The notes beneath the pieces are model-generated. The model saw only the letters and a program-made list of their open reading frames with translations, ran no database searches and was not told where the DNA came from. Position numbers and translations under genes: made by a program. A DNA stretch of 64,000 bases from Pseudomonas lini (GTDB lineage: Bacteria; Pseudomonadota; Gammaproteobacteria; Pseudomonadales; Pseudomonadaceae), in the NCBI RefSeq assembly GCF_964063345.1, contig NZ_OZ061318.1, positions 2,976,001-3,040,000 of the forward strand. The letters are read 5' to 3'. Below, in pieces: positions 30,304 through 44,774 of this stretch (position 1 is its first letter; each line of letters starts with the position of its first letter).

Positions 30304-30402
30304 AGACGCAACAGGTTGGCACCGGATGCACCCGTTCGTCCCAAGCGTCTGGTTTTTCGCCCAATGATGACATCAGCCGGGTAATAGCCCGGAGCAAAAG
30401 GG

Positions 30403-31668
30403 TTAACGATAGACAGGATGACGGCGGCAGAGCGCCACCACCTGCTCACGCACGTGATGCCCGACCTTCTCGCTGTTGCCATTTTCCAGGGCGTCCAGTA
30501 CGTCGCACAACCAGCCCGCCAATTGTTCACATTCGATCACGCCGAAACCACGGGTGGTGATGGCCGGGGTACCGATGCGCAGCCCGGAGGTCACGAACGG
30601 TGAGCGCGGGTCGTTGGGCACCGAGTTCTTGTTGGCGGTGATGTAGGCATTGCTCAGGGCCGCATCGGCTTCCTTACCGGTATAAGGCCTGTCGGACAGG
30701 TCGATTAGCATCATGTGGTTATCGGTGCCACCGGAGACGATTTTGTAACCCCGCTCTTGCAGCACGGCCGCCATGGCCCGGGCGTTGATCACCACCTGCG
30801 CCTGATAGGTTTTGAACTCGGGCCTCAGTGCTTCCTTGAAAGCGACGGCCTTGGCGGCGATCTGGTGCATCAATGGGCCGCCCTGGACACCCGGGAATAC
30901 CGCAGAATCGAGCTTTTTGTAGAATGCTTCATCTTGCCCCTTGGACAAAATCAAGCCACCCCTTGGGCCCCGCAGGGTCTTGTGCGTAGTGCTGGTGACC
31001 ACATGGGCGTGCGGCAATGGGTCCGGGTATTCTCCCGCGGCGACCAACCCGGCGACGTGGGCCATATCGACCCAGAAAATGGCGCCGACCTTGTCGGCAA
31101 TGGCCCGCATGCGCGCCCAGTCTTTGTACCGGGAGTAGGCAGAAAAACCACCGATCAGCATCTTCGGCCGGGTTTCCAGGGCGATACGTTCCATCTCGTC
31201 GTAGTCGAGAAAGCCCGTCTGCGGGTCAAGGCCATAAGGAACGATCTTGTAATGACGGCCCGAGAAATTTGAAGGGTTGCCATGGGTCAGGTGCCCACCC
31301 TGAGCCAGGTTCATGCCCATCACCGTGTCGCCGGGATTGATCAAAGCCAGGAATACCGCGGCGTTCGCCTGTGCACCCGCATGTGGCTGCACATTGGCGT
31401 AGTCACAGTTGAACAGGGCCTTGACCCGCTCGATGGCCAGGCGCTCGGCCACATCGACATACTCACAGCCGCTGTAGTAGCGCTTGCCTGGATAGCCTTC
31501 GGCGTATTTGTTGGTGAGCACGGTGCTCTGGATTTTCATCACCAGAGGGCTGGCGTAATTTTCGGAAGCGATCAGTTCGACGTGGTCTTCCTGACGATGT
31601 TCTTCGTTATGAATCGCCTCACACAGCTCGGCGTCGAATGCTTTAAGGGTCAGTGTTGTGTCGTACAT
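30403..31668 (-). CDS. glyA: serine hydroxymethyltransferase, canonical copy in island
   Basis: 421 residues. Converts serine and tetrahydrofolate to glycine and methylene-THF. All key residues of the E. coli enzyme are present: Ser35 in LIASENY, Tyr55 in NKYAEGYPG, Asp and His in WVDMAHVAG, the PLP lysine K230 in TTHKTLRGPRGG, the glycines in GVQGGPLMH, and the carboxylate-binding Arg in SGLRIGTPA. Pseudomonads have other chromosomal glyA genes, so this is an extra copy. Last gene of the benE-yggS-argD-like-glyA operon driven from about 35.1 kb. The weak ribosome site leaves the start slightly uncertain. Confidence 0.94.
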   Translation of the reverse strand: MYDTTLTLKAFDAELCEAIHNEEHRQEDHVELIASENYASPLVMKIQSTVLTNKYAEGYPGKRYYSGCEYVDVAERLAIERVKALFNCDYANVQPHAGAQANAAVFLALINPGDTVMGMNLAQGGHLTHGNPSNFSGRHYKIVPYGLDPQTGFLDYDEMERIALETRPKMLIGGFSAYSRYKDWARMRAIADKVGAIFWVDMAHVAGLVAAGEYPDPLPHAHVVTSTTHKTLRGPRGGLILSKGQDEAFYKKLDSAVFPGVQGGPLMHQIAAKAVAFKEALRPEFKTYQAQVVINARAMAAVLQERGYKIVSGGTDNHMMLIDLSDRPYTGKEADAALSNAYITANKNSVPNDPRSPFVTSGLRIGTPAITTRGFGVIECEQLAGWLCDVLDALENGNSEKVGHHVREQVVALCRRHPVYR

Positions 31669-31702
31669 ATGAAGGGGTCCTTGGTTGGGAAAGTAAGCCG
31701 GT

Positions 31703-32875
31703 TTACGAGAAGAGCCGAGTAACACGCACTGCGATGTCGTCGATCTGCGAGTCCTCACAGATCAACGGCGGCAACAATCGGAGGGTGGTGCCGCGAGTCA
31801 CCGTTATCAGCAGGCGTTGTTCATCCCGCGCCCGGCCGACCAGTTCGGCACACTCACGGTTCAGTTCGATACCGACCATCAGGCCCAGGCCGCGAATGGA
31901 AACGACCTCGCTGTGATTGCCCAGCGCCTCCTGCAGCGCAGCCAGCAGCCGACGGCCAGATGTGGCTGCGCGCTGCGGGATGTGATCGCGCTCCATGATG
32001 TCGAGTACGGTGCATCCCACGCGGCAGGCCAGGGGGTTACCGCCGAAAGTGGAGGCATGATGGCCCGGGGAAAACAGTTCAGCGGCCTTACCCCGAGCCA
32101 GGCATGCGCCAATGGGAAAGCCATTGCCCAGTGCCTTGGCCAGCGTGATGACATCCGGCACTATCCCCGCGTGTTGGAAACCAAACCAGGCACCGGTGCG
32201 GCCCATCCCGGTTTGCACTTCATCGACCATCATCAGCCAATCGTGCTCGTCGCACAGTTGCCGCAGAGCCTGCAAATAACTGGTGGATGCGGCATGCACA
32301 CCGCCCTCACCCTGCACGGGCTCGACCAGTACCGCGACGATGTTGGGTGATTGCGCCGCCACCTCGCGGATCGCCTCGATGTTGTCGTAAGGCACCCGTA
32401 GAAAGCCTGGCATCAAAGGCTCAAAGCCACGCTGCACGGCCGGGTTCCCGGTGGCTGCGAGGGTGGCCAGGGTGCGACCGTGAAAGCTGTTTTCCATCAC
32501 TAACACTTGTGGCTGTGCCACGTGCCTGGCGTTGGCGTGCAGCCGGGCCAACTTGAGCGCCGCTTCGTTGGCTTCAGCCCCCGAGTTGCAAAAAAAGGCG
32601 CGTTGCATGCCCGACAAGACGCACAAACGCTCACTCAACTGCTCCTGCCATTCGATGCGAAACATGTTGGTGGTGTGCAGTAACTGGCTCGCTTGCTCGG
32701 CAATGGCGGCGGCGATTTCGGGGTTGGCATGCCCGAGACTGGTTACCGCCACACCGGCGATTGCATCCAGGTATTCGACCCCGTGCGTGTCCCACAGAGA
32801 TGCCCCTTGGCCTCGACTGAAGGAGACCGGCTGGCGAGCATAGTTGTGCATGAGGTACGAGGGTGCAGAGGACAT
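31703..32875 (-). CDS. class III PLP aminotransferase (acetylornithine-aminotransferase-like)
   Basis: 390 residues. Class III marks: YLDAIAGVAVTSLGHANPEI, FFCNSGAEANEAALKLAR, ENSFHGRTLATLAATG, EPVQGEGGVH, DEVQTGMGRTG and the PLP lysine K247 in ITLAKALGNGFPIG; the phosphate-binding threonine is in HASTFGGNPLA. Closest in feel to the ArgD/acetylornithine family and to the uncharacterised pseudomonad class III aminotransferases. Within the island it probably transaminates a pathway intermediate, or is a duplicate protecting arginine or amine metabolism. Substrate unknown. Gap to glyA is 34 bp. Confidence 0.88.
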   Translation of the reverse strand: MSSAPSYLMHNYARQPVSFSRGQGASLWDTHGVEYLDAIAGVAVTSLGHANPEIAAAIAEQASQLLHTTNMFRIEWQEQLSERLCVLSGMQRAFFCNSGAEANEAALKLARLHANARHVAQPQVLVMENSFHGRTLATLAATGNPAVQRGFEPLMPGFLRVPYDNIEAIREVAAQSPNIVAVLVEPVQGEGGVHAASTSYLQALRQLCDEHDWLMMVDEVQTGMGRTGAWFGFQHAGIVPDVITLAKALGNGFPIGACLARGKAAELFSPGHHASTFGGNPLACRVGCTVLDIMERDHIPQRAATSGRRLLAALQEALGNHSEVVSIRGLGLMVGIELNRECAELVGRARDEQRLLITVTRGTTLRLLPPLICEDSQIDDIAVRVTRLFS

Positions 32876-32931
32876 CGGATTGGCTTCCTGTAGAGCTGGA
32901 TCAAGATGTTTAAGGGGGGTGTCAGCGGCGG

Positions 32932-44045: not shown

Positions 44046-44252
44046 CCATTTTCGCCGTATAAATCGGCCTGCAAGCCATCTTGACCAACATGACTCCCGA
44101 GGAACCAAGGAAGATTGAGAAGGCCCTGTCGGCGAGTCATCAGCCGTCTCACCACGGCCTTCTCATCACTCACCCAAACCAGGGTTTCACGTTTTGGTGG
44201 GTCAAGAAGTACGTTTTTTTATACCTATAAATGCAAGGATGAGGAGTCAAGA

Positions 44253-44621
44253 ATGATCGTAGTTTTGTTTGAGTTGCAGGCACTGCCAGGTCAAGGCGAG
44301 ACCTACGTTGACCTGGTAAACAAGCTGACGCCGATGCTCGAACCCATGGACGGCTTTATTTCGGTCGAGTGTTTTCAAAGCACGCTGAACCCCAAGAAAG
44401 TCATGTCGGTCACTACCTGGCGTGATGAGGAAGCCGTGGTGCAGTGGCGCAACGTGACCGCACACCTGTCGGCGCAGAAAGCGGGCCGCGACAAGATTTT
44501 CGATGACTACCGTGTACGTGTGACCTCGGTGATCCGTGACTACGGATTGCGTGATCGTGAACAGGCCCCCTACAACGAAGTAATCGACGGCGAACCCGCC
44601 AAAACAACCGCCGAGGCGTAG
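44253..44621 (+). CDS. ABM-domain (antibiotic biosynthesis monooxygenase-like) protein
   Basis: 122 residues. The N-terminal 95 residues form a dimeric alpha-beta barrel pattern: VVLFELQALPGQGETYVDLV, MLEPMDGFISVECFQSTLNP and MSVTTWRDEEAVVQWRN followed by THLSAQKAGR. ABM proteins include cofactor-free quinone-forming monooxygenases and heme-degrading enzymes; many are small-molecule isomerases or scavengers. The 25-residue C-terminal tail is unusual. GAGGAG lies 7 bp before the ATG. Last gene of the island; it has its own operator-bearing promoter. Confidence 0.85.
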   Translation: MIVVLFELQALPGQGETYVDLVNKLTPMLEPMDGFISVECFQSTLNPKKVMSVTTWRDEEAVVQWRNVTAHLSAQKAGRDKIFDDYRVRVTSVIRDYGLRDREQAPYNEVIDGEPAKTTAEA

Positions 44622-44675
44622 GGCCCAGGTTCTACCAGGCAGGACTCTTTACGCAATCCCGGGAAACACAGAAAC

Positions 44676-44736
44676 AAGAACGCCGGTTTAATGGATGTTG
44701 TACTTGCGATCAAACACATCCAGAACCGGCGTTCTT
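44676..44736. repeat. long imperfect inverted repeat at the right island border
   Basis: AAGAACGCCGGTT (44676-44688) and AACCGGCGTTCTT (44724-44736) are perfect 13-bp arms. The 35-bp interior has further pairing GGATGT/ACATCC. No U-run follows, so it is not a clear terminator. It could be the terminator of the last island gene, a recombination-related hairpin, or a remnant of a mobile element. It lies 39 bp before the yifB remnant. Confidence 0.6.
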
Positions 44737-44774
44737 ATGCGCGAATCAATACTCTCCTTCCTTTTGGGAGGGCA

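Follow-up and report, generated by a model that had tools for sequence, protein, structure and literature searches.

Why should a diiron N-oxygenase be encoded among six proteins of pyridoxal phosphate (PLP) fold? The question is raised by an island of about 14.5 kb in Pseudomonas lini (GCF_964063345.1), located at positions 30304..44774 of a 64,000-nucleotide stretch (the window; 2,976,001–3,040,000 of contig NZ_OZ061318.1) of a 6.58-Mb single-contig genome. Its twelve genes are open reading frames (ORFs) with Pfam matches to the families that an earlier note on this DNA had named, and most have NCBIfam matches as well. The core of the island has already been described in Alcaligenes under the name dnf (also 'Dirammox'), and what is new here is a reading of its PLP-fold battery. 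With a probability of about 70%, the locus is a Pseudomonas dnf cluster that makes hydroxylamine, together with a co-regulated set of genes that would guard the cell's vitamin B6 (B6) enzymes.

The dnf core and its likely product

The dnf cluster of Alcaligenes ammonioxydans HO-1 and A. faecalis has the same oxygenase, reductase, amidotransferase, MocR-type regulator, serine hydroxymethyltransferase (SHMT) and SerC as the window, in the same order and orientation. Its published annotation, dnfT1RT2ABCD, reads SerC-type transaminase, PLP-aminotransferase family protein, SHMT, diiron N-oxygenase, 2Fe-2S protein, amidotransferase and pyridoxal kinase. In the window, the counterparts of DnfT1 (SerC-type phosphoserine/phosphohydroxythreonine transaminase, assigned by domain models and gene order; 35148..36230, minus strand), DnfR (MocR/PdxR-type regulator; 36319..37863, plus strand) and DnfT2 (the second SHMT, SHMT2; 38107..39405, minus strand) stand upstream of dnfABC in the published order. 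Three Alcaligenes genomes (L017, L018, L020) carry the row SHMT1, SerC, MocR, SHMT2, AurF-type oxygenase, reductase and amidotransferase, in which MocR and the last three genes are read forward and the others backward, followed by pyridoxal kinase; identity to these genomes is 78–79% for DnfA, 80% for DnfR, 66–67% for DnfC and 78–79% for SHMT1. Judged by gene content and order, the island is in its core the Pseudomonas version of the described cluster. The earlier statement that the set matches no described cluster is thus overturned for the core, which corresponds gene for gene to a characterized pathway with a known product (hydroxylamine, and N2, which is disputed), and the idea of an undescribed cluster is rejected because published papers describe that core.

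Beyond the Alcaligenes cluster, the window adds an ArgD-like aminotransferase, YggS, BenE, an MFS transporter before dnfA and an ABM protein, and its cluster has no dnfD. The dnfD pyridoxal kinase was not found among the cluster genes, in the window flanks or in the locus L004 (DnfA 94% identical), the remainder of the genome being unsearched; dnfD is not needed for activity, because dnfABC suffices in E. coli.

An alignment of 25 AurF sequences served as the query of one profile search of genome contigs; the 55 loci found were compared with the window proteins by tblastn. The whole array is collinear in all ten Pseudomonas loci with DnfA at least 80% identical (L004–L013; no MFS gene was detected in L006 or L011). 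Two Delftia loci, L015 and L016, hold 10 of the 12 genes, a third (L014) being too short on that side to tell. This co-occurrence is beyond chance and upholds the proposal of one functional cluster around an AurF-family N-oxygenase and its reductase. The cluster is an accessory island: six of 199 genomes of the genus (its own included) have DnfA at least 80% identical, three more have it at 60–64% (one with an in-frame TAG), and the other 56 of the 65 genus genomes with any DnfA match hold only distant relatives, of about 32% identity or less.

DnfA (41237..42199, plus strand) matches the AurF-family diiron enzymes of Pfam (E 1.5e-53), and its closest relatives are Pseudomonas proteins (94% in L004, 92% in P0001). 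All seven iron ligands listed for DnfA (E88, E123, H126, E182, H209, E213, and H216) are present at the published positions (PMC9478400; published sources are cited here for the parts of their text that concern these genes), and they are invariant in the alignment of 25 AurF sequences. The adjoining DnfB (42196..43254, plus strand) is a reductase with FAD/NAD(P) and [2Fe-2S] domains. Its gene overlaps dnfA by 4 bases, and dnfC (43292..44002, plus strand) follows 37 bases on, so that dnfABC looks like an operon. DnfC has the Cys and His-Glu residues of class I glutamine amidotransferases (nucleophile motif GICLG, and HLE), and its residues 1–231 align with PDB 9xfs, titled 'glutamine amidotransferase' (E 3e-98).

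E. coli carrying dnfABC alone makes hydroxylamine and N2, according to published work. Studies cited in PMC11160463 have DnfAB hydroxylating glutamine and DnfC hydrolyzing the hydroxamate, and the same paper argues that N2 formation is likely abiotic. Glutamine has been doubted as the direct DnfA substrate (PMC11440038), in a paper that lists P. cedrina among the hosts of dnfABC homologs. In the mechanism proposed here, DnfA and its reductase DnfB would N-hydroxylate a glutamine-derived amide or amine, DnfC would free the nitrogen as hydroxylamine, and the MFS protein (39642..40991, plus strand) may export it. The close match of the core points strongly to hydroxylamine as the likely product.

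A domain-model scan found no nonribosomal peptide synthetase (NRPS) or polyketide synthase (PKS) among the twelve cluster genes. Of the product envisaged in the earlier note, a small N-oxygenated compound made without NRPS or PKS, that much is probably right; its derivation from an amino acid is not supported. The obafluorin cluster, to which the locus had been compared, has an AurF homolog, an SHMT-like transaldolase and an NRPS. The window shares an AurF homolog and an SHMT-like protein with it, but an obafluorin-like pathway is rejected because the NRPS is not among the twelve genes and SHMT2 lacks the lysine. The trichostatin proteins TsnB7/TsnB9 are likened to the window by an AurF homolog hydroxylating glutamine and an amidotransferase-like hydroxyamidotransferase; there, however, hydroxylamine is passed to another carrier, and no polyketide gene is among the twelve (PMC11160463).

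A shared motif and the B6 genes

The MocR-type regulator exceeds the cut-off of the PdxR model NF052282 (431.4 versus 320 bits). A common promoter motif stands before four gene groups. It is present as TAAGTGGTCTG (35100..35110, minus strand) before the row BenE-YggS-ArgD-SHMT1, whose spacing suggests an operon, and as AAAGTGGTCTG before SHMT2 (39523..39533, minus strand), before MFS-dnfABC (39596..39606, plus strand) and before ABM (44002..44012, plus strand, near which the minus strand has another GTGGTCTG core, at 44037); the two AAAGTGGTCTG sites between SHMT2 and MFS form an inverted pair. With at most one mismatch, AAAGTGGTCTG has five sites in the window versus 0.82 expected, and none of 100 shuffles reached five, for a motif picked after the sequence was seen; four of these sites precede BenE, SHMT2, MFS and ABM, and the fifth, at 51760, lies outside the cluster. 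The pattern AAGTGGTCTG has 15 copies in the genome, four of them inside the cluster, where they precede the BenE-YggS-ArgD-SHMT1 row, SHMT2, MFS-dnfABC and ABM. Five of the six window copies of the GTGGTCTG core fall within 1.6 kb of cluster intergenic DNA, and this core precedes BenE at 13 of 13 loci having BenE and DnfA. It also precedes SHMT2 in all 11 Pseudomonas, the window among them, and in all three Alcaligenes, so that the window and the Alcaligenes dnf cluster have it before the same gene.

The DnfR operator motif reported by Xu et al. in 2022 is said to be TGGTCTGT. The longer motif contains most of this 8-mer, which by itself matches the window once (1.35 expected), between SHMT2 and MFS. 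A single match is no more than chance would give, and the case for co-regulation is built on the longer motif and where its copies lie. These make the longer motif a putative DnfR operator, and the cluster would form one regulon.

Predicted PdxR regulons resemble the window in having, under MocR-type regulators, ArgD- and GlyA-family enzymes, COG0325 (the YggS family), BenE and a GuaA-family amidotransferase; BenE and GlyA are a recurrent pair, and a role in pyridoxine transport is proposed for the BenE-family protein (PMC5320631). The relevant parts of that text name no diiron N-oxygenase, however, and the word 'diiron' occurs there 0 times. In nitrifying A. faecalis, yggS (AFA2_00794) rises with dnf, with a log fold change of 3.30 (PMC8629993). 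YggS proteins of three Alcaligenes genomes are 65–67% identical to that of the window, versus 52–53% for their other copy. This dnf-type yggS adjoins a PtsJ-like gene (in L106, 551 bits, just under the 573 cut-off), and a pair of yggS and a PtsJ-like gene adjoins dnfA in Thiobacillus and Pokkaliibacter. A Shinella plasmid (L003, 6945–12087) has BenE, MocR, an SHMT that keeps its lysine and YggS, with no DnfA in the fetched 21 kb and with GTGGTCTG before the SHMT, and possibly represents a stand-alone B6 stress set.

B6/PLP genes are associated with DnfC. In total, 57 AurF-bearing loci (the 55 from the contig search plus L001 and L002) were tested for SHMT, ArgD, SerC, YggS, pyridoxal kinase and MocR-type genes within 9 kb of DnfA, some loci being short on one side (e.g., L014, L035, L039, L040, L042, L046, L047). 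At least one such gene (regulators included) was found at 33 of 43 loci with DnfC and at 0 of 14 without it. An edge SHMT match at L055 and L057 was judged housekeeping and dropped; with it and a 10-kb limit, the counts become 35 of 43 versus 0 of 14. As a rough background, about 18 SHMT, SerC, ArgD-class and YggS genes outside the cluster put about 6% of random points in the window's own genome within 10 kb of one. Across genera the recurrent members are pyridoxal kinase, YggS and MocR regulators of B6 type, and the rest of the set varies: SHMT, SerC, MocR and kinase in Alcaligenes; YggS, kinase, ArgD and MocR-type genes in Thiobacillus, Andreprevotia, Pokkaliibacter and Jeongeupia; YggS only in Herbaspirillum; ArgD, kinase and a MocR-type gene in Stutzerimonas. 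Representatives only of these recurrent families were scanned with models. Both kinases scanned scored above 342, the cut-off of the pyridoxine/pyridoxal/pyridoxamine kinase model (L017 358.7, L019 411.9). The MocR-type protein in the place of DnfR lies at L056 above the 573-bit cut-off of 'B6 salvage transcription factor PtsJ' (661 bits) and at L024 above the PdxR cut-off (388.5 versus 320).

Two further observations concern these loci. A YiiM-like MOSC gene is present in six of the ten PLP-negative DnfC-bearing loci (L052–L055, L057, L058) and in four PLP-positive ones (L034, L043, L045, L048). MOSC and YiiM domains were recognized in both of the representatives scanned for them, and the L034 protein scores 177 against the 6-hydroxyaminopurine reductase model, below its cut-off of 294. 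In E. coli, YcbX and YiiM reduce an N-hydroxylated base analog (PMC3831636), and the YiiM-like protein is possibly a reductase of N-hydroxy compounds. A second cluster type without DnfC (L001, 12390–18173; L032, L033, L035, L036, L037) combines an arylamine N-acetyltransferase, an alpha/beta hydrolase, an MFS protein, a diiron oxygenase, a reductase and an ATP-grasp protein. Its DnfA homolog is 66–69% identical, its hosts are Pantoea (on a plasmid), Pectobacterium, Rouxiella, Ewingella and Proteus, and neither an amidotransferase match nor any of the tested PLP genes was found in these clusters.

Hydroxylamine attacks PLP, turning it into an oxime. YggS is a PLP-homeostasis protein, and SerC serves B6 synthesis besides being needed for serine synthesis. 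In the window, SHMT1 (30403..31668, minus strand; catalytic Lys kept) has three paralogs outside the cluster, at 66, 65 and 60% identity; it is nearer to its Alcaligenes counterpart than to these copies and thus appears to travel with the cluster. SerC is likewise 57–58% identical to its Alcaligenes counterpart versus 50% to the other SerC of its own genome. The ArgD-family class III aminotransferase (31703..32875, minus strand) is 57% identical to its nearest genome paralog, and YggS (32932..33750, minus strand) shares 41% identity with a second genomic copy, which is reported with one in-frame TAG. The PLP lysine is kept in all five PLP-fold proteins other than SHMT2, in the window and in every compared homolog row.

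As hydroxylamine attacks PLP, the battery is best read as protecting the cell's own B6 enzymes, on the combined evidence of co-regulation, DnfC association, gene content and this chemistry. Hydroxylamine would trap PLP as an oxime, and for that reason the same MocR regulator, DnfR, would co-express a guard set: BenE (33750..35069, minus strand) as a putative B6 importer, YggS, SerC, a spare SHMT and ArgD, and SHMT2. Because A. ammonioxydans inhibits other bacteria via extracellular hydroxylamine (PMC9355588), such self-protection would have a purpose. No paper linking Dirammox, hydroxylamine and PLP protection was found in the open-licence literature.

A lysine-less SHMT and rival explanations

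The motif THTTLRGPRGG of SHMT2 has Thr at the site of the PLP-binding lysine of SHMT1 (THKTLRGPRGG); the lysine-less SHMT noted earlier is therefore real. In Alcaligenes dnf the residue is Gly, and T, A or G occupies the site in 13 of 19 SHMT2 matches from the fetched loci. Among the 120 homologs listed (window protein included; 8000 candidates scored), 12 are without lysine (T 6, A 4, Q 1, M 1) and 108 have it, and the lysine-keepers among those listed include relatives 83–85% identical. A quick tree was made of both window proteins, 75 of these 120 homologs and locus rows of SHMT2 (13) and SHMT1 (3), with the lysine column kept and with support from the Shimodaira–Hasegawa-like approximate likelihood ratio test (SH-aLRT) only; parsimony on it gives at fewest four changes between Lys and another state. 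Other active-site changes, at residues whose roles and numbering are presumably as in known SHMTs, are Tyr51 to His (as in the window) or Gln, Glu53 to Gln, and His200 to Glu or Pro.

The ratio of nonsynonymous to synonymous substitution rates (dN/dS) of the window SHMT2 is 0.09–0.13 versus five Pseudomonas clusters (L004, L005, L006, L008, L013), next to 0.10–0.11 for YggS (four compared) and 0.11–0.19 for DnfA; the SHMT2 values for L017 are void, its aligned row having started ahead of the gene. SHMT2 is full length and under purifying selection, and its lysine has been lost repeatedly. The simplest reading of these sequences is that the work of SHMT2 no longer needs catalysis; it may bind PLP or PLP-oxime instead of acting as an enzyme. 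A stronger version is tentative, its chances being a little short of even. In it, bacteria that make hydroxylamine would have a dedicated 'B6 shield' under MocR control (spare PLP enzymes, genes for B6 uptake or kinase, YggS, and SHMT2 as a non-enzymatic binder of PLP or PLP-oxime), and hydroxylamine would be a PLP-directed weapon with matching self-resistance.

SHMT2 could also be a decaying, functionless enzyme under relaxed selection, carried with the cluster. The separate losses of Lys to T/A, G, Q and M are in keeping with decay, as are the other active-site changes, the long Alcaligenes branch (0.85) and a constraint weaker than that on SHMT1; but the gene remains full length with its promoter motif kept, and its dN/dS is close to those of YggS and DnfA, which makes decay quite unlikely. 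A different proposal is that the PLP-fold enzymes are biosynthetic, with SHMT, SerC and ArgD turning DnfABC-derived hydroxylamine into an N-hydroxy or hydroxamate amino acid. PMC11160463 (Sci. Adv. 2024) finds the amino- and hydroxymethyltransferases suggestive of biosynthesis and cites TsnB7/TsnB9 as a hydroxamate precedent, and a transporter and the ABM protein would suit such a pathway. However, no PLP enzyme is constant (in the fetched stretches, some genera lack SHMT, some ArgD and some SerC), the B6 economy is where pyridoxal kinase, YggS, BenE and PdxR/PtsJ-type regulators belong, and SHMT2 has repeatedly lost the catalytic lysine; a biosynthetic role is unlikely. The cluster could finally be plain Dirammox, an ammonia-to-N2 route in which the PLP genes came along by hitchhiking or serve general amino-acid metabolism. 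That dnfABC suffices in E. coli and that DnfA oxidized hydroxylamine to N2 in vitro (PMC9478400) agree with this, but biotic N2 formation is disputed (PMC11160463), a common motif stands before both gene groups, and the PLP genes recur in several arrangements and genera; this explanation is very unlikely.

Several points weigh against hydroxylamine synthesis with a co-regulated B6 guard. The motif was chosen after the sequence was seen, and a reversed control pattern has 22 genomic copies versus 15 for AAGTGGTCTG, so that there is no genome-wide excess, only concentration in the cluster. The GTGGTCTG core was found before SHMT2 in 0 of 3 Delftia, and a site by SerC/MocR, present in 9 of 11 Pseudomonas, is absent there in the window. 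The motif was predicted before the Alcaligenes dnf-type yggS and was not found there; only L106 showed the true upstream side, L107 and L108 lying in the other orientation so that this side was absent from the examined stretch, and a genome-wide pattern search of L017 gave no AAGTGGTCTG copy near yggS at 2,377,141–2,377,908. For the DnfC association, four of the 33 positive loci (L024, L026, L044, L048) carry a MocR-type regulator only, leaving 29 of 43 without them, and 10 of the 43 have none of the tested genes (L030, L031, L038, L041, L052–L055, L057, L058). Most queries were taken from clusters with DnfC, and because the loci are related, the Fisher p of 2.5e-7 overstates the evidence. The long Alcaligenes SHMT2 branch is placed with supports of only 85 and 80, and joining it to the Pseudomonas T/A group would give three changes instead of four; SHMT1 is under tighter constraint than SHMT2 (dN/dS 0.04–0.05, versus two clusters). 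Hydroxylamine synthesis does not require the battery, as E. coli achieves it with no more than dnfABC, and PMC11160463 takes these genes to suggest a biosynthetic pathway instead.

Cluster borders and implications

The last of the twelve genes encodes the ABM-domain protein (44253..44621, plus strand; Pfam match), which had no NCBIfam match and matched solved structures only weakly (best E 6e-6). It is 92–96% identical across ten Pseudomonas clusters, as conserved as SHMT1 (92–98%), and has its own motif copy. On the left, a yifB-like Mg-chelatase-type gene directly adjoins the cluster, in a flank with hem genes, argH, cyaA and ammonium-transporter genes. An ammonium transporter family gene (24244–25578), about 3 kb before the yifB-like border gene, is probably a core neighbor and perhaps a coincidence; between the two lies a BRO-N domain protein (26817–27569), possibly a remnant of a phage or mobile element. 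The likely starts differ slightly from those of the longest ORFs for SHMT1 (31668), SHMT2 (39405), SerC (about 36230) and ABM (about 44253).

A lysine-less SHMT kept by purifying selection is unusual in its own right. For the dnf PLP genes in general, a guard for B6 offers a concrete alternative to the biosynthetic interpretation, testable by gene removals. If it is true, 'aminotransferases' taken by others as biosynthetic would be resistance genes, and the guard reading would predict which bacteria can afford hydroxylamine release.

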